Assembly (NCBI GenBank): GCA_945870155.1
Contig: CAMBSB010000023.1
Span: 1 to 46,178 of the forward strand
Direction: 5' to 3'
Source of the DNA: Paludibacter jiangxiensis
GTDB taxonomy: Bacteria; Bacteroidota; Bacteroidia; Bacteroidales; Paludibacteraceae
DNA length: 46,178 nucleotides
The notes under the pieces are model-generated. The model saw only the letters and a program-made list of their open reading frames with translations, ran no database searches and was not told the origin of the DNA. Shown here in pieces: positions 12,109-23,758 of the stretch. Numbering within the stretch: the stretch's first letter is position 1; each line of letters begins with the position of its first letter. The translations under genes and the position numbers were made by a program.

Positions 12109-12765
12109 ATGATTGAAGCTAAAAATATTCACAAGAGTTTTGAAACTCTCGAAGTGTTGAAAGGTGTAGATTTAAGCATACAAAAAGGTGAAATTGTATC
12201 CATTGTTGGACCAAGTGGTGCGGGCAAAACTACTTTACTTCAAATAATTGGCACACTCGACAAACCTAATTCAGGTAGTGTAAAACTTAATGGTGTGGAT
12301 GTTAATACTTTGAACGAGAAAGAATTATCGGCTTTTCGTAACAAACACATAGGTTTCATTTTTCAGTTTCATCAACTTTTGCCGGAGTTTACAGCACTCG
12401 AAAATGTGATGATACCAGCATTAATCGCCGGAAAAGACTCAAAAACTGCCAAAAAGCTAGCCATGGATTTATTGGATTATCTTCAATTATCCAACCGCAT
12501 AGAACACAAACCTGCTGAACTTTCGGGTGGTGAAAAACAGAGAGTCGCCGTGGCGAGGGCATTAATCAATCATCCCTCCATAATTTTAGCCGATGAGCCT
12601 TCGGGCAGTCTTGACACTACTAATAAAGAAGAACTGCACAAGCTTTTATTCGATTTGCGCGACAAATTTGGCCTCACCATAGTGATAGTAACTCACGACA
12701 AAGAGTTGGCAATGCTTTCTGATAGGGTGATAGAGATGAAGGATGGGAAAATCAAAATAATGTAG
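12109..12765 (+). CDS. lolD: LolD-like ABC transporter ATP-binding protein
   Basis: A 218-residue ABC ATPase of the MacB/LolD group, which powers lipoprotein release from the inner membrane or efflux/permease complexes. Walker [10 protein letters not shown] at 34-42, Q-loop [16 protein letters not shown] near 87, signature [15 protein letters not shown] near 138, Walker [13 protein letters not shown] near 157, and switch His in VIVTHDKEL near 197. No permease gene is adjacent, so the partner is elsewhere. Its TAG stop at 12763-12765 lies inside attL. In the uninterrupted chromosome it would coincide with the last three bases of the convergent tRNA-Arg gene. LolD versus another member of the group is not settled by sequence alone. 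Confidence 0.8.
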
Positions 12766-12776
12766 TCCCGCCGGGA
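12761..12776. repeat. attL (16-bp direct repeat of the tRNA 3' end)
   Basis: TGTAGTCCCGCCGGGA, identical to 23685-23700. It starts 2 bp before the lolD stop codon. With the following C it forms the inverted repeat GTCCCG-C-CGGGAC (12765-12777), which may be the integrase core site. Confidence 0.85.
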
Positions 12777-12989: not shown

Positions 12990-14366
12990 ATGGCAAAAAT
13001 TAGTTTTTACCTCACCAATTCAAAGACAAAAAACGAAACAAATCTTTATTGTCTAATTAATTACGGACTGTTTAGCATTGAATCAGGGACAAAGAAGTAT
13101 TTACCTCTTAAATACTATACAGATATTGCAATGTTTCCCGATTTATGGAATAAGGAACTAAACCGGGCAAAGGAATCTAACAAGTGGGCGAACCCTGACA
13201 CTTTTGATATTAGTAGTCAAGCGGTCAAAGAATCAGCACGAAAGAATTACAACGCTATTAATTCAGAAATTGAAACCTTTGAACATACCGCAAAGGAATT
13301 AATCAGAACACTTTCAGAGAATGGAAATGTGCCCTCACACGACATACTCCGATTAGAGTTAGATAAGATTTACAAACCTACCAAAGTAACCACAGCACAG
13401 GGCGAAACACCAAAGGAATTTTTTCCGTTTATCGACTTTTTTATAAAGACCGCAACCCGGAAAGAAAACACCATTAAGAGTTACAAAACACTTAAGAACA
13501 ATTTATTAGAATATCAAAAGGATAAAAAAACTACTTTGACATTCGACCGGATTGATATTGATTTTTATAATTCGTTTATCGACTATCTTACAAAACCCAA
13601 AACGATAAAAACTAAAACCGGAAAATCTAAAACGGTTGCGGGACTATCAATAAATACAATCGGCACCCGAATAAAGATTTTAAAAACCTTTATGAGTGAG
13701 GCAAACAATAGAGGTATAAATGTACCGACTGACTATACAAAGAAATCATTCAAAAAACCAAACGAGGAATCATTTTCTATCTACCTGAATGAATCAGAAT
13801 TAATGCAAATGTACAATAAGTCAGATATGCCACTTTATTTGGAACGTGTGAAAGATTTATTCCTTATTGGTTGTTATACCGGTCTGCGGTTTTCTGACCT
13901 TGTACAATTAAAAAAAGAGAATATAACAGCTGATAATACCATTAATGTAACTACTCAAAAAACGAATCAAAAAGTAGTAGTACCAATACACCCGGTTGTC
14001 AGAGAGATTTTTAAAAAGTACGAATATAAACTCCCGAAACTGCCAACGAATCAGAAATTTAATGAGTTTTTGAAAGAGGTTGCAAAATTATCAAAGATAA
14101 ACGAACCTGTTACAACAGAATCGACAAAAGGAGGTTTTAAGGTATCACAAACCACCGAAAAATATAATTTGGTAACGAGCCACACAGCAAGGCGCAGTTT
14201 TGCCACGAACGCCTTTTTAATGGATATGCCAAGTATTTCAATAATGAAAATTACCGGACACAAAACAGAATCGGCATTTATGCGCTATATTAAAATGAGT
14301 GCAAAGGATAACGCTATCAAAATGCAATCGCATAAGTTTTTTAATCAAATGTTAATCGCTAAATAA
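12990..14366 (+). CDS. Tyrosine recombinase / integrase
   Basis: A 458-residue site-specific integrase of the Bacteroidetes type, with an N-terminal arm-binding region, an SAM-like core-binding domain (about 135-235, TIKSYKTLKNNLLEY) and a C-terminal catalytic domain. Catalytic residues: first Arg in CYTGLRFSDLVQLKKENI near 299, H-x-x-R in SHTARRSFATNAF near 397-400, His in ITGHKTESAFMRY near 423, and the nucleophile Tyr in the same segment near 432. Length is usual for the family. It is 214 bp inside attL and reads inward, as expected for an integrase acting on the flanking tRNA site. Its stop overlaps the next start by 1 bp. Confidence 0.93.
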   Translation: MAKISFYLTNSKTKNETNLYCLINYGLFSIESGTKKYLPLKYYTDIAMFPDLWNKELNRAKESNKWANPDTFDISSQAVKESARKNYNAINSEIETFEHTAKELIRTLSENGNVPSHDILRLELDKIYKPTKVTTAQGETPKEFFPFIDFFIKTATRKENTIKSYKTLKNNLLEYQKDKKTTLTFDRIDIDFYNSFIDYLTKPKTIKTKTGKSKTVAGLSINTIGTRIKILKTFMSEANNRGINVPTDYTKKSFKKPNEESFSIYLNESELMQMYNKSDMPLYLERVKDLFLIGCYTGLRFSDLVQLKKENITADNTINVTTQKTNQKVVVPIHPVVREIFKKYEYKLPKLPTNQKFNEFLKEVAKLSKINEPVTTESTKGGFKVSQTTEKYNLVTSHTARRSFATNAFLMDMPSISIMKITGHKTESAFMRYIKMSAKDNAIKMQSHKFFNQMLIAK

Positions 14367-15318: not shown

Positions 15319-15404
15319 TCCGTAACGGAAACGGTGGAAATAAAGATAAATTAAAAACGGAAATCTTTGCATAAACTTTAAAAACAAGTATATGCAAACG
15401 GAAA
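15319..15404. promoter_or_regulatory. ACGGAAA repeats around the Xis-like gene start
   Basis: The palindrome TCCGTAACGGA (15319-15329) is followed by direct ACGGAAA copies at 15325-15331, 15357-15363 and, just inside the gene, 15398-15404. AATCTTTG at 15362-15369 is one base off the -7 consensus. Repeats at this position suggest binding by the Xis-like protein or another element regulator. Confidence 0.35.
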
Positions 15405-15697
15405 TTATTCTATCAGGAATCAGTTTTGAACAGTTACAAGACAGTTTCAGAACTATTGTACAAAACGAAGTACAAAAAATCGTATCAGGGCTAACCACCG
15501 CCCCCGAACCCGCCCCCGAGTTAATCACTCGAAAAGAAACAGCCGAGATTTTAGGTATTTCCTTACCAACTTTGAATAGTTGGACTTCAACAGGAATTAT
15601 ACCGGCACAACGTATTGGAACACGTGTAAGGTACAACAGAGCTAATGTGTACGCATCTTTAAAAGACATTGAAACCCTCAAATATAGGAGAGCGTAA
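15392..15697 (+). CDS. Helix-turn-helix protein, excisionase/MerR-like
   Basis: A 101-residue DNA-binding protein. The N-terminal 45 residues are Gln-rich and probably helical (FEQLQDSFRTIVQNEVQKIV). Residues about 48-98 are a winged HTH_17 domain: LITRKETAEILGISLPTL, then NSWTSTGIIPAQRIGTRVRY and YNRANVYASLKD. This domain is typical of excisionases and small regulators in integrative elements of Bacteroidetes, where it directs integrase towards excision or controls replication genes. It is the first gene of a tight operon: the next start is 2 bp after its stop, and the replication gene overlaps that one. Confidence 0.8.
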   Translation: MQTEIILSGISFEQLQDSFRTIVQNEVQKIVSGLTTAPEPAPELITRKETAEILGISLPTLNSWTSTGIIPAQRIGTRVRYNRANVYASLKDIETLKYRRA

Positions 15698-17813: not shown

Positions 17814-18374
17814 ATGGAATTACAAATCATACAAAATAAAATTTACGAAATTCGTGGGCAACGTGTGATGTTGGACTTCGATTTGGCAAAAATGTATGAT
17901 GTTGAAACCCGTGTTTTGAACCAGTCAGTTAAAAGGAATATTGAACGATTTCCTATTGATTTTATGTTTCAGCTGACTGAAAATGAGTGGGGTATTATGT
18001 CGTCACAATTTGTGATGACATCAAAACGTCCAAAATCAGCCCTACCTTTAGTCTTCACAGAGCATGGAGTAACAATGTTGTCAAGCATTTTAAGAAGTAG
18101 TACGGCGATACAAATCAATATTCAAATTGTACGTGCATTTATTGCAGTTCGTAAGCTACTGGCTGCAAACCCAGCAGACAGAGTTACTCAATTACAAACT
18201 GAATTTAAAGAACTGAAAGCCTACATTGAGGAAGTTTTTACCGATTACAATGATATTAACGAGGATACCCGCATGCAAATAGAACTTATTAACCAATCCT
18301 TAGCTGAGTTGCATGCTGATAAAAAACAAAAAACTAAACCCCGAAATAAAATTGGTTTTATTACAGAAGAGTAA
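17814..18374 (+). CDS. ORF6N-domain (KilA-N-like) DNA-binding protein
   Basis: A 186-residue protein. Residues 1-90 are an ORF6N domain: IQNKIYEIRGQRVMLDFDLA, then KMYDVETRVLNQSVKRN and IERFPIDFMFQLT, followed by KSALPLVFTEHGVTMLSSIL. ORF6N domains occur in phage and mobile-element regulators and antirepressors. The C-terminal 70 residues are a charged helical, possibly coiled-coil, tail (LQTEFKELKAYIEEVFTDY). It lies upstream of the structured leader and methyltransferase gene. It could control the element's cargo, but the sequence does not show this. Confidence 0.85.
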   Translation: MELQIIQNKIYEIRGQRVMLDFDLAKMYDVETRVLNQSVKRNIERFPIDFMFQLTENEWGIMSSQFVMTSKRPKSALPLVFTEHGVTMLSSILRSSTAIQINIQIVRAFIAVRKLLAANPADRVTQLQTEFKELKAYIEEVFTDYNDINEDTRMQIELINQSLAELHADKKQKTKPRNKIGFITEE

Positions 18375-18499
18375 AATATACAAAGTTCAATATTAAGAGA
18401 TTAGATTCAAATACAATTTAAATATCTAAAATACAAATATTAAATCATTAAATAGAAAACAAAAAACAAGACAATTATTTAATTTTCAACATATTAATA

Positions 18500-18651
18500 T
18501 AGCATTCTGCTATTGTTCGTGCGATAGAAACCTAGGAAATTTCAAAAAAAGCGAACACACAATCAGATTCAATGAGCAAAATGCTCACGTCGGAAACGGC
18601 GTGGGCTTTTGACTTATCGATTGTGTGTGGGCTTCCTAGGGCCTCTATCGC
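18500..18651 (+). ncRNA. Candidate structured RNA with nested long-range stems
   Basis: A small hairpin TAGCA-TTC-TGCTA (18500-18512) precedes a closed structure. Outer stem: GCGATAGA (18521-18528) pairs with TCTATCGC (18644-18651), and CCTAGGAA (18531-18538) with TTCCTAGG (18633-18640), separated by an AA/GCC internal loop. Inner stem: ACACACAATC (18555-18564) pairs with GATTGTGTGT (18619-18628). Inside are TGAGCA-AAA-TGCTCA (18573-18587) and CACGTCG-GAAA-CGGCGTG (18586-18603), the latter closed by a GNRA tetraloop; they share two bases, so only partial versions coexist. The architecture is RNA-like rather than a simple terminator. It matches no family I can name. Strand is inferred from the downstream gene. 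Confidence 0.5.
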
Positions 18652-18653
18652 AG

Positions 18654-18696
18654 GTAAGAATTTAGTCCACGCTTTTTTTGTGGTTTAAAGTCTTAC
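18654..18696 (+). promoter_or_regulatory. Long hairpin in the methyltransferase leader
   Basis: GTAAGA (18654-18659) pairs with TCTTAC (18691-18696). The inner part TTTAG-x-CCAC (18661-18670) pairs with GTGG-x-TTTAAA (18680-18689), with two mismatches in 17 positions. The 9-nt loop is GCTTTTTTT. It is a possible attenuator or part of the larger RNA. Confidence 0.5.
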
Positions 18697-18731: not shown

Positions 18732-19787
18732 ATGGCAAAGAAATCACAAAACGAAAATCTCCACAAAGCTAAAGATGGCAAAAAAGATGAGTTCTACACC
18801 CAACTCACCGATATAGAAAAGGAAATGAAACACTACAAAGATCATTTTGTAGGAAAAACGATTTATTGCAATTGTGATGACCCTGAATGGTCAAACTTTT
18901 TCCGCTTTTTCGCACTGAAATTTGAGGATTTAAAACTCAAAAAACTCATTTCCACACACTTTGTCTATTCCGATATGTTTGTTCAAGGCGATGCTTACAA
19001 GTTAGAAATCACAAGACAGTTGAATTTGAAAAGTGACGGCAAGCTTGATTTTTCGGACAAAGAAAAAACCAAGCTCAAACGCAACGGCGATTTTAGTTCT
19101 TCTGAATGTGTCGAATTGTTGAAAGAGGCTGATATTGTGGTAACTAATCCAACGTTTTCACTTTTTCGTCAATATGTGGCTCAATTGGTGCAATACGATA
19201 AGAAATTTCTAATTATTGGAAATGTTAATGCAATTACTTACAAAGAAATTTTCAAGTTGATTAAAGCAAATAATTTGTGGTTAGGTGCAAGCATTCACAG
19301 TGGGGATAGAGAGTTTGGCGTTCCTGATGATTACCCACTCAATGCTGCAAGTAGCAGGATTGATGAGGACGGCAATAAATACATTAGAGTAAAAGGAGTG
19401 CGTTGGTTTACAAATCTGGATTATAAAGAACGACACGAAGACTTAATACTATTCAAGAAGTATACACCCGAGGAATACCCAACTTATGATAACTACGACG
19501 CCATCAATGTGGATGTAACAAAATCTATTCCAGCAGATTACGAAGGTGTCATGGGTGTGCCTATTACTTTTTTGGACAAATATAATCCTGAACAGTTTGA
19601 AGTTGTTGGTTTGGGTATATCTAATTCAGGAATTGAAATAGGTGTACAACCCTATAAACCTGAACATAAAAAATATAGAAAGGAAGTTCAAAAAAGAGGT
19701 GCAGTTGATGGCGATTTGTATCTGATTACAAACGGAATTGTAGATGTTCCTTATGCTCGAATCATTATCAAAAATAAAAAATTATGA
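18732..19787 (+). CDS. EcoRI-family adenine-specific DNA methyltransferase
   Basis: A 351-residue predicted SAM-dependent N6-adenine methyltransferase resembling the M.EcoRI family. Family-like stretches: KDEFYTQLTDIEKEM near 18, GKTIYCNCDDPEWSNFFRFF near 41 (SAM-binding region), then DIVVTNPTFSLFRQYVAQL near 134, FLIIGNVNAITYKEIF near 160 and GVRWFTNLDYKERHEDLIL near 224. The length is close to other EcoRI-type enzymes. One oddity: the catalytic motif IV reads NPTF at 139-142 where the family has NPPF, a change of one base (ACG for CCG). Its stop overlaps the start of the DUF262-HNH gene by 4 bp, so the two are translated together. Target sequence cannot be told from here. Confidence 0.88.
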   Translation: MAKKSQNENLHKAKDGKKDEFYTQLTDIEKEMKHYKDHFVGKTIYCNCDDPEWSNFFRFFALKFEDLKLKKLISTHFVYSDMFVQGDAYKLEITRQLNLKSDGKLDFSDKEKTKLKRNGDFSSSECVELLKEADIVVTNPTFSLFRQYVAQLVQYDKKFLIIGNVNAITYKEIFKLIKANNLWLGASIHSGDREFGVPDDYPLNAASSRIDEDGNKYIRVKGVRWFTNLDYKERHEDLILFKKYTPEEYPTYDNYDAINVDVTKSIPADYEGVMGVPITFLDKYNPEQFEVVGLGISNSGIEIGVQPYKPEHKKYRKEVQKRGAVDGDLYLITNGIVDVPYARIIIKNKKL

Positions 19788-20866
19788 AAATAGAACTCAA
19801 AGAAATTACGGTTAGAGAACTTACCAATGGCTATCAAGATAATAATGATAACGGGGTAGTGGGCTATGGTGGCCAGTTGGATATTCGTCCGCCTTATCAG
19901 CGGGAATTCATCTACAAGGATAAGCAGCGCGATGCGGTGATTGATACCATCACCAACAACTTTCCGTTGAACGTGATGTATTGGGCTGTGCGAGATGATG
20001 GTTTTGAAGTTATTGACGGGCAGCAACGCACTATTTCGTTGTGTCAGTATGTGAATGGCGATTTTGCCTATATGTTTAGGTACTTTCACAACCTTCAACC
20101 CGATGAAAAAGAACAAATCCTGAATTATAAACTGATGATTTACCTGTGCAGCGGTACCCCCAGCGAAAAACTGAAGTGGTTTGAAACCATCAATATCGCT
20201 GGTGAACGACTTACTCAGCAGGAACTTCGCAACGCCATTTACTGTGGTTCGTGGGTAACCGATGCCAAACGCCATTTCAGTAAAAGTGGATGTGCTGCAT
20301 ACAACATTGGCTGCGATTATCTGAACAAAAGACCAGAACGTCAAGAGTACTTAGAAACTGCTATTAATTGGATTTCGGACGGGAATATAGAAATATATAT
20401 GTCGAATCATCAGCACGACCCGAATGCTAATGCCTTATGGCGGTATTTTCAAAATATATTCTCGTGGGTTGAATCCACCTTTACCGTGAAACGAAAGAAG
20501 TTTATGAAAGGCATTGAATGGGGTACATTGTACAACAAATACAAAGATGAGCTTTACGACACAGCTGCTATTGAAGCCGAAACAGCCCGCCTCATTGCCG
20601 ACGACGATGTGGAAAAAAAGAGCGGCATTTATCCTTACATTCTCACACGAAATGAGAAATACCTCTCAATACGCACTTTCACTGATAATATAAAGCAAAA
20701 AATCTACGAAAGACAGGGTGGAATTTGTAAGTACTGTAAAAAACATTTCGAGCTTCCAGAGATGGAAGCCGACCACATAATACCCTGGAGCAAAGGCGGT
20801 AAAACAATCGAAGAGAATTGCCAACTGTTGTGCAAGTACGATAATGCAAGTAAATCAGGGAAGTGA
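19784..20866 (+). CDS. DUF262 (GmrSD-like) protein with C-terminal HNH nuclease
   Basis: A 360-residue predicted nuclease. The N-terminal DUF262 domain shows RPPYQREFIY at 35-44 and the motif IDGQQRT at 77-83; in GmrS/GmrD, BrxU and SspE this ParB-like domain binds and hydrolyses nucleotides and gates DNA cleavage. Residues 308-360 form an HNH domain: CKYC at 315-318, DHIIPWSKGG with D330 H331, and NCQLLCKYDNASKSGK with N345. The fourth zinc-ligand position, usually Cys in LCxxCN, is Asp (LCKYDN). The protein is about half the length of GmrSD. The 4-bp overlap with the methyltransferase points to a restriction-modification partner: nuclease plus protective methylase. Cleavage target and nucleotide dependence are unknown. 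Confidence 0.85.
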   Translation: MKIELKEITVRELTNGYQDNNDNGVVGYGGQLDIRPPYQREFIYKDKQRDAVIDTITNNFPLNVMYWAVRDDGFEVIDGQQRTISLCQYVNGDFAYMFRYFHNLQPDEKEQILNYKLMIYLCSGTPSEKLKWFETINIAGERLTQQELRNAIYCGSWVTDAKRHFSKSGCAAYNIGCDYLNKRPERQEYLETAINWISDGNIEIYMSNHQHDPNANALWRYFQNIFSWVESTFTVKRKKFMKGIEWGTLYNKYKDELYDTAAIEAETARLIADDDVEKKSGIYPYILTRNEKYLSIRTFTDNIKQKIYERQGGICKYCKKHFELPEMEADHIIPWSKGGKTIEENCQLLCKYDNASKSGK

Positions 20867-23359: not shown

Positions 23360-23686
23360 GAAATAATAAATTAAAAGTTAACCTTAATAATGATTTGAGA
23401 AGTTTTTTTAATTTGAGGCTATATTAAAAAGAGCGGTCAGGAACCACCCCGACCGCAAATTGTGTTTAACCCACCAACGCATCCGCCGGAAAGTGATACA
23501 AAGATATATTTTATTTTCAGAAACTCAAAACCGGCCTTTAATCCCAATTCATTAGAGTTTTGTTTAATAGTTTATTTTTCGCTATTTTTGTACTTGAAAT
23601 GACTAAAACGAATCTATTCTTACCATTATTCTTACCAAAACAAGCAATTTAAGTACTTATGTGTTTGATATTCAGAGACGTTTGTG
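23360..23686. other. Gene-free right end of the element
   Basis: A hairpin GCGGTC (23433-23438) / GACCGC (23451-23456), extendable by an inner GG/CC, could end element transcription, but no U-run follows. The right arm-type repeat lies at 23615-23637. Otherwise AT-rich, no coding frame. Confidence 0.55.
23615..23637. repeat. Right subterminal arm-type repeat
   Basis: Identical over 23 bp and in the same orientation to 12903-12925. It contains ATTCTTACC at 23616-23624 and 23628-23636, again 12 bp apart, ending 47 bp before attR. Confidence 0.65.
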
Positions 23687-23700
23687 TAGTCCCGCCGGGA
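23685..23700. repeat. attR within the tRNA 3' end
   Basis: TGTAGTCCCGCCGGGA, identical to attL at 12761-12776. It covers the 3' end and part of the T-stem of the minus-strand tRNA-Arg, so integration leaves the tRNA gene whole. Confidence 0.85.
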
Positions 23701-23758
23701 ATCGAACCCGGATCTAGTGTTTAGGAAACACTTGTTCTATCCATTGAACTACAGGACC
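23687..23758 (-). tRNA. tRNA-Arg (anticodon CCU)
   Basis: On the minus strand the sequence folds as a cloverleaf: acceptor GGTCCTG/CGGGACT (with G-U pairs), D-stem GTTC/GAAC, anticodon stem AGTGT/ACACT with loop TTCCTAA, and T-arm CCGGG-TTCGATT-CCCGG. The anticodon CCT reads AGG arginine codons. CCA is not encoded. The gene is the integration target of the element to its left. Confidence 0.93.

Follow-up and report, generated by a model that had tools for sequence, protein, structure and literature searches.

An EcoRI-family methyltransferase with a variable loop and a constant DUF262-HNH partner nuclease: a candidate methyltransferase-guided restriction-modification cassette in Paludibacter

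In textbook type II restriction-modification (R-M), the cutter and the marker both read the site, so that a change of specificity requires a joint change in both. In type I systems (HsdMS/HsdR), sequence information is supplied by HsdS. In BREX, PglX supplies it for marking and for defence (PMC11341690; this and the other papers cited are drawn on in excerpt). DUF262 domains occur in the type IV systems GmrSD and BrxU, together with DUF1524, and in SspE, a DUF262-DUF1524 protein that senses phosphorothioate marks and nicks phage DNA without them (PMC8713573, PMC12707154). The DNA analysed here, 46,178 nucleotides from Paludibacter jiangxiensis (contig CAMBSB010000023.1; the window, at its full length), encodes an EcoRI-family DNA methyltransferase (MTase), M, followed by a DUF262-HNH nuclease, R. 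We report the coupling of the two genes, the dependence of R on M, replacement of a loop in M without change in R, the presence of several MTases per R, and conservation of the nuclease residues. With about even confidence, we read the locus as an M-guided, type II-like R-M cassette on a 10.9-kb integrative element, in which R would be a constant effector acting where M directs. M is most likely the specificity subunit, and R an effector gated by nucleoside triphosphate (NTP). The features of the pair are as follows.

18732-19787, forward strand: M, EcoRI-family N6-adenine DNA methyltransferase, 351 amino acids (aa); PF13651, PADLOC MTase_II
19152-19154, forward strand: motif IV codon ACG, Thr141 of M (NPTF), from an alignment of 99 MTases
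19281-19415, forward strand: variable loop, M residues 184-228, presumed target recognition segment
19784-20866, forward strand: R, DUF262-HNH nuclease, 360 aa; PF03235, PF01844, PADLOC REase_II, AlphaFold
20015-20029, forward strand: DGQQR motif of R, presumed nucleotide site
20726-20857, forward strand: HNH domain of R (D330, H331, N345, N354; presumed zinc ligands C315, C318, C350, D353); PF01844

The two genes are separate and adjacent, as in classical type II R-M, and share four bases, ATGA. The first-pass annotation, made from the letters of the window, had described a methyltransferase gene overlapping a DUF262 (IDGQQRT)-HNH gene by 4 bp, and this was borne out, with PF13651, PF03235 and PF01844 all scoring above their cut-offs. 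M matched PF13651 (EcoRI_methylase) over profile positions 1-345 of 345 (461 bits, above the curated Pfam cut-off), and the PADLOC MTase_II model PDLC03297 covered nearly all of it (393 bits). M is 49% identical to M.EcoRI from an E. coli plasmid (NZ_OW967970) over 354 alignment columns. The AlphaFold model of M had a predicted local distance difference test (pLDDT) score of 87.5; its best match in the PDB was a KsgA chimera (E 1.9e-3), and the search for a solved-structure relative returned no significant match. The locus differs from EcoRI R-M in that its nuclease belongs to another family, its gene order is M-R as against R-M, and its loop is free where that of EcoRI is locked.

R begins with a GmrSD_N (DUF262) domain (PF03235, 66 bits against a cut-off of 33.2) and ends in an HNH domain (PF01844, 52 bits, residues 315-358, above the curated cut-off). 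The PADLOC REase_II model PDLC03418 spans its full length (446 bits), and its AlphaFold model has a pLDDT of 91. The DUF1524 family gave no match in R at E 0.1, and PF01844 HNH stands in its place. The motif IDGQQRT was found, and D78, G79, Q80, Q81 and R82 were unchanged in all 82 aligned R proteins, as were D330, H331 and N345 of the HNH domain; N354 was present in 80. Position 353, the presumed fourth zinc ligand, was C in 54 of the 82 and D in 15, the window's R having D353. All 63 near-invariant columns were retained in the window's R. Matches to solved structures were confined to the HNH region (best E 4.4e-4). Foldseek returned weak whole-length matches (ParB/Srx-like; BrxU 7p9k, E 0.012), with none at E ≤ 0.001, so that the likeness to BrxU rests mainly on Pfam. 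NTP gating of R is suggested by the invariant DGQQR, the ParB/Srx-like matches and the literature on GmrSD (PMC4619093, in excerpt). By homology, R would be nucleotide-gated and may act in phage defence.

R shares with GmrSD and BrxU a DUF262 domain with DGQQR and a nuclease domain of the His-Me type. It differs in its length of 360 aa, its PF01844 domain without a DUF1524 match, its near-constant partner MTase and its presumed action on unmodified DNA. Like SspE with SspABCD, it is a DUF262 nuclease paired with a self-marking system, though here the mark would be made by a single MTase gene and not by phosphorothioation. The logic proposed, a methylating protein that reads sequence for both marking and defence, is that of BREX PglX and of type I R-M, but the system has two genes and an unrelated nuclease, and no BREX or type I families were found among the nine window proteins scanned.

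The pairing itself is already known, and what is new here is the evidence on mechanism, which suggests a blind R and specificity in M. The first-pass annotation had known of no described system of exactly this pairing, while allowing that one might exist unnamed in databases. The pairing is not undescribed: PDLC03418 corresponds to R, plasmid records annotate both genes side by side, and the excerpted text of PMC5608340 lists such a layout; the idea of an unknown system was rejected on these grounds. That paper, a 2017 methylome study, gives for Prevotella intermedia ATCC 25611 an EcoRI-like MTase, M.Pin25611FORF1345P (51% identity to that of EcoRI), with a REase gene immediately downstream, classed as type II. 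Its table coordinates correspond to 972 and 1104 bases in the layout of the window; from length and order, the REase is presumably a DUF262-HNH protein. Among the entries listed from the open-licence literature searched, none was a functional study of an EcoRI-family MTase paired with such a nuclease.

Conservation of the pair was examined in genomes, viral contigs and plasmids. An R profile run at E 1e-30 over 395 genomes of the window's phylum found R places in 16 genomes. Of these 22 places, 20 adjoined an M (within about 150 bases of its match, with some M frames broken); one of the others (in genome G389) had M 1.8 kb upstream, and the second (G270:C89) started 213 bases from a contig end. 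In viral contigs, 101 R relatives were narrowed to the best 80; M lay directly upstream in 75 of these loci, two started at contig ends, and three (L207, L208, L213) had M displaced or broken nearby. For plasmids, the R side comprised 30 listed of 97 matching records, with nine near-identical E. faecium plasmids, and the M side 60 listed of 101. All but one (NZ_LN898145) of the 30 R records listed recurred among the 60 M records listed, 29 in all, with M not always adjacent. The conserved pairing that the first-pass annotation had proposed to look for in other genomes was found and is not due to chance, and its reading of a coupled two-gene R-M unit on an integrative element is supported: the unit recurs across many phyla, and on viral contigs and plasmids as well.

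From the M side, R followed on the same strand in 91 of 109 M loci (a count that includes fragments and overlapping loci), with a gap of at most 31 bases in 72. Seven of the other 18 had fewer than 450 bases downstream of M. R.EcoRI was present at two of the 18 (L016, L017), R lay just past the stretch examined at L006 (G389), and L031, L033 and L035 were fragments or a second piece of the same gene. L024, L027 and L089 were without R in the DNA examined, and at L103, at a contig end, R was on the opposite strand. By these associations, R is dependent on M and not the reverse; near-constant company of R with M, and M at times without R, is as expected if R were harmful without M. At one further locus of the 18 (L106), an EcoRI-family MTase was followed by a D12-like MTase and AAA-like open reading frames (ORFs), assigned by eye, possibly a third kind of nuclease partner. 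A further pair in the Paludibacter genome itself, on contig C72, has diverged from that of the window (M 42% and R 40% identical), and contig C65 (22517-24944) has two adjacent DUF262 matches in long frames of 762 and 553 codons.

The relation between the variable loop and R was analysed in 147 pairs (65 from genome contigs, 61 viral, 20 from further genomes and one from a plasmid). Loci L001-L005, R proteins below 330 aa, M proteins below 265 aa, M on the other strand, gaps outside -100 to 1200 and exact duplicates were left out, and the near-duplicate L110/L113 was retained. The commonest M-R gap in this set was the 4-base overlap (47 of 147). The loop fell into 22 clusters while the backbone of M stayed alignable (mean identity 0.687). 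The number of clusters depends on the average-linkage cut of 0.62, which we chose; 11 clusters are singletons, and at least one member of cluster 18 (L019) fits poorly. On a tree of the M backbone, built from 77 rows and 145 columns and with half of its inner branches left open, five large clusters required at least 25 changes. The loop and the C-terminus of M also change separately, as in L041 and L099, whose loops are 20% and C-termini 94% identical. Tyr204, Trp183 and Cys223 of M.EcoRI, which we take to be DNA contacts, would lie within this loop or beside it.

R did not follow these changes. Its identity was 58.5% within and 57.0% between loop clusters. In partial Mantel tests, R was unrelated to the loop when the M backbone was controlled (r = -0.025, p = 0.71), and was related to the backbone when the loop was controlled (r = 0.51, p = 0.001). 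A thinned set of 85 pairs below 75% R identity gave the same picture for the loop (r = -0.07, p = 0.85). When R was divided into 18 segments of 20 residues, with whole-R distance controlled, all segments besides 1-20 and 341-360 had p ≥ 0.16. As a positive check, M segments beside the loop were detected (161-180, r = 0.154; 261-280, r = 0.14; both p = 0.005), so the test can see modest effects. Among 27 disjoint loop-switched pairs (R at least 75%, loop less than 42% identical), no R position differed in all, and in comparison with 25 loop-conserved pairs no R position was enriched by 0.5 or more (overall difference rate 0.18 against 0.147). These data suggest an R that is probably blind to the target sequence, evidence that the first-pass annotation had missed.

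MTases that stand beside genuine R.EcoRI served as a control. There were 11, from E. coli, two Klebsiella, Leuconostoc, Staphylococcus and Rhodococcus plasmids, three genomes and two viral contigs. The control is without 11 of the 19 matching R.EcoRI plasmid records. It also omits L238 and L239, where no M.EcoRI relative was present at E 1e-3; the nucleases of these two loci share 48% and 30% (partly covered) identity with R.EcoRI. All 11 MTases share one loop type, with a minimum loop identity of 0.62 and none of 55 comparisons below 0.45, whereas DUF262-paired MTases with backbone identity of 0.8-0.9 had loop identity below 0.45 in 52% of 322 comparisons. This indicates that a site-reading nuclease locks the loop of its partner and that the DUF262 nuclease does not. 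On the backbone tree, a branch sets the R.EcoRI-paired MTases apart from the rest, in keeping with a single nuclease exchange. R.EcoRI as query had no match in the window's own genome (at E 1e-10) or in the window locus (at E 1e-3). In four DUF262-paired MTases (L015, L117, L172, L177) the loop is of the EcoRI type, with an identity of 0.67-0.82 to that of M.EcoRI, and these MTases are accordingly predicted to methylate GAATTC.

Natural exchanges of the loop were also found. One draft genome, G212, holds two pairs, L008 and L026, in both of which M has the motif NPPF. Between the two R proteins there are 10 differences: eight fall within residues 2-16, and the others are S97N and E352D. The M proteins are only 22% identical in the loop and 9% in the C-terminus, as against 78-98% elsewhere. 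The N-terminal changes in R adjoin the C-terminus of M, and may be part of one exchanged tract. At locus L096 (1152-4324), three tandem EcoRI-family MTases with different loop types precede a single DUF262-HNH gene. Locus L110 (5001-7251) and its near-copy L113 have two tandem MTases, again with different loops, before a single R. Each of these tandem MTases has NPPF, and the middle one at L096 looks frame-broken near its end.

In the mechanism proposed, M would methylate adenines within its own target sequence and would double as the sequence reader for restriction. R would be a conserved DUF262-HNH effector, without a segment that follows the loop of M and presumably nucleotide-gated. M would call R into action at unmethylated sites, and foreign DNA would be cut by R. 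R comes encoded with M and so must spare DNA that M has methylated. Given that R does not vary with the loop, the most economical account has M giving the sequence information and R the cut, after the manner of PglX in BREX or HsdS in type I systems. An M-R complex, NTP gating, cleavage and phage defence would each be part of this scheme. Somewhat short of even odds is the broader proposal of a widespread system in which the EcoRI-type M would be the sole sequence reader for marking and cutting, with a constant nucleotide-gated R, and in which new specificities would arise from a swapped loop and C-terminus, or from an added second or third M, with R unchanged. If M does guide R, specificity would be modular and a single swap of M would retarget the whole system, which would account for many loop types with one nuclease and for tandem MTases before a single R. 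DUF262 nucleases would gain a third mode besides type IV and Ssp systems, R would be a general-purpose, reprogrammable effector, and the pair would be a simple two-protein tool with its target set in the methyltransferase.

Several results weigh against an M-guided R. Residues 1-20 of R were related to the loop with whole-R distance controlled (r = 0.112, p = 0.005), as were residues 341-360 (r = 0.093, p = 0.045); with the M backbone controlled, the value for 1-20 was r = 0.033 (p = 0.20). In the full set, R 1-20 was also related to M 68-120 (r = 0.095, p = 0.012; p = 0.07 thinned) and to the C-terminus of M (r = 0.067, p = 0.026; p = 0.13 thinned). R positions 209, 212 and 274 showed adjusted mutual information with loop class of 0.21, 0.19 and 0.15, in a test on 68 pairs with three hand-made classes; its outcome was largely that of the later tests, which replaced it. 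The nearest R neighbour fell in the same loop cluster in 51 of 147 cases, with 31 expected by chance, an excess that common descent would also give. No M-R fusion was seen among the pooled loci, and that the loop of M reads DNA sequence is a step that we infer. The P. intermedia pair was predicted to recognise GAATTC, and the excerpted text of PMC5608340 reports no such methylation and calls the pair inactive; the absent signal would fit either inactivity or another specificity.

The first rival is a classical type II arrangement, in which R would itself read the same site as M, and in which either the loop would not be the specificity element or the specificity of R would lie in a few residues that escape the tests. 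We consider this unlikely. In its favour are the weak signals in R 1-20 and at positions 209, 212 and 274, the PADLOC models of the pair as REase_II and MTase_II, and the prediction of GAATTC for the P. intermedia pair, of the same layout, by REBASE-based annotation (PMC5608340, in excerpt). However, it has to meet 22 loop clusters beside a constant R, nearly the same R with different loops at L008 and L026, and multiple loop types before a single R at L096 and L110. The R.EcoRI control shows the locked loop that the classical model predicts, and the DUF262 set differs from it sharply.

Slightly less probable again is the main alternative with a blind R, a mark sensor similar to SspE, in which R would sense N6-methyladenine in any context and cut or nick unmarked DNA, with no need for target recognition. 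A constant R with an invariant DGQQR would fit such a sensor, but the marks of a six-base MTase would presumably be sparse, and SspE sensing is itself sequence-dependent. No ssp-type family was seen among the nine window proteins scanned, a scan that included no search aimed at ssp genes. The precedent for sensing of this kind is SspE (PMC8713573, PMC12707154, in excerpt). A type IV-like nuclease directed against modified phage DNA, and merely beside an MTase, is very improbable: the kinship of the DUF262 domain with GmrSD and BrxU, including the Foldseek match to 7p9k, would favour it, but R hardly ever occurs without M, has PF01844 HNH in place of DUF1524, and type IV systems are described as working without an MTase (PMC5608340, in excerpt). 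R as a stand-alone type IV enzyme was dropped as the leading interpretation because R almost always lies beside M.

A further point against the M-guided reading concerns the window's own copy, which may be weakened. Motif IV of its M is NPTF and not NPPF: Pro141 was found in 98 of 99 aligned MTases, and the window's M is the sole exception. Of 64 near-invariant columns, M retains all but this second proline, replaced by Thr. Thr141 may be an artefact of sequencing, or it may mark an enzyme that is weakened or in early decay. The assignment of M to the EcoRI family in the first-pass annotation stood, given the full-length match to PF13651, but the odd motif IV had been overlooked.

The pair is carried with the following features.

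12761-12776, forward strand: 16-bp direct repeat, presumed att site
12990-14366, forward strand: tyrosine integrase (PF00589, PF13102, phrog_1 integrase)
15392-15697, forward strand: HTH_17 protein, excisionase-like (PF12728; phrog_66 excisionase and transcriptional regulator, 39 bits)
17814-18374, forward strand: ORF6N-domain protein, cargo upstream of the pair (PF10543, 118 bits)
18480-18690, forward strand: structured multi-copy element of about 200 nt, directly upstream of M
23685-23700, forward strand: 16-bp direct repeat at the 3' end of tRNA-Arg(CCT)
23686-23758, reverse strand: tRNA-Arg(CCT), presumed integration target

The two 16-bp repeats are identical, and the one at 23685-23700 coincides with the 3' end of the tRNA gene. 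Together, the repeats and, between them, the integrase, the excisionase-like gene, the ORF6N protein and the pair look like a 10.9-kb integrative element.

The element upstream of M folds at z -8.4 (18505-18665) and has covarying stems and a conserved inner hairpin. Covariation was assessed in 17 copies over 46 pairs in four helices, with the structure taken from one copy (L266). Both sides had changed in 69 cells, as against 16.7 when shuffled, and the covariation score was 0.303 as against 0.136 shuffled and at most 0.09 when slid; further pair types showed no excess (40 against 39.1 shuffled). Rfam gave no match over the gathering score. Integrons were considered, and nothing in the window's own genome matched TIGR02249 above the cut-off; the conserved inner hairpin seems unlike attC. 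Three copies lie in the window's own genome, and 25 of 60 genomes searched (own included) had a match at E 0.001, some of them short.

In a first set of 19 full-length copies, 16 preceded an R-M MTase, an R-M helicase or a nuclease-like gene. Six of these 16 had been chosen for fronting EcoRI-type MTases, L272 was assigned from its resemblance to L271, and L269 and L274 are followed by unscanned genes; without the chosen six, 10 of 13 copies, from same-genus genomes, fronted R-M type genes. In a second set, drawn from the remaining long matches, 15 of 20 did so (L298 by likeness to L265, L300 with a weak match). The R-M operons fronted by copies L262-L279 and L282-L301 were of types I, II, IIG and III by PADLOC. 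The element could be a leader common to R-M operons, or a site of recombination. Several copies come after small toxin-antitoxin-like cassettes. At six loci (L262, L265, L268, L263, L264, L273), partial copies separate small cassettes of the same orientation, as in a cassette array; the cassettes contain HEPN-like/nucleotidyltransferase-like pairs and short toxin-antitoxin-like ORFs, named by eye.

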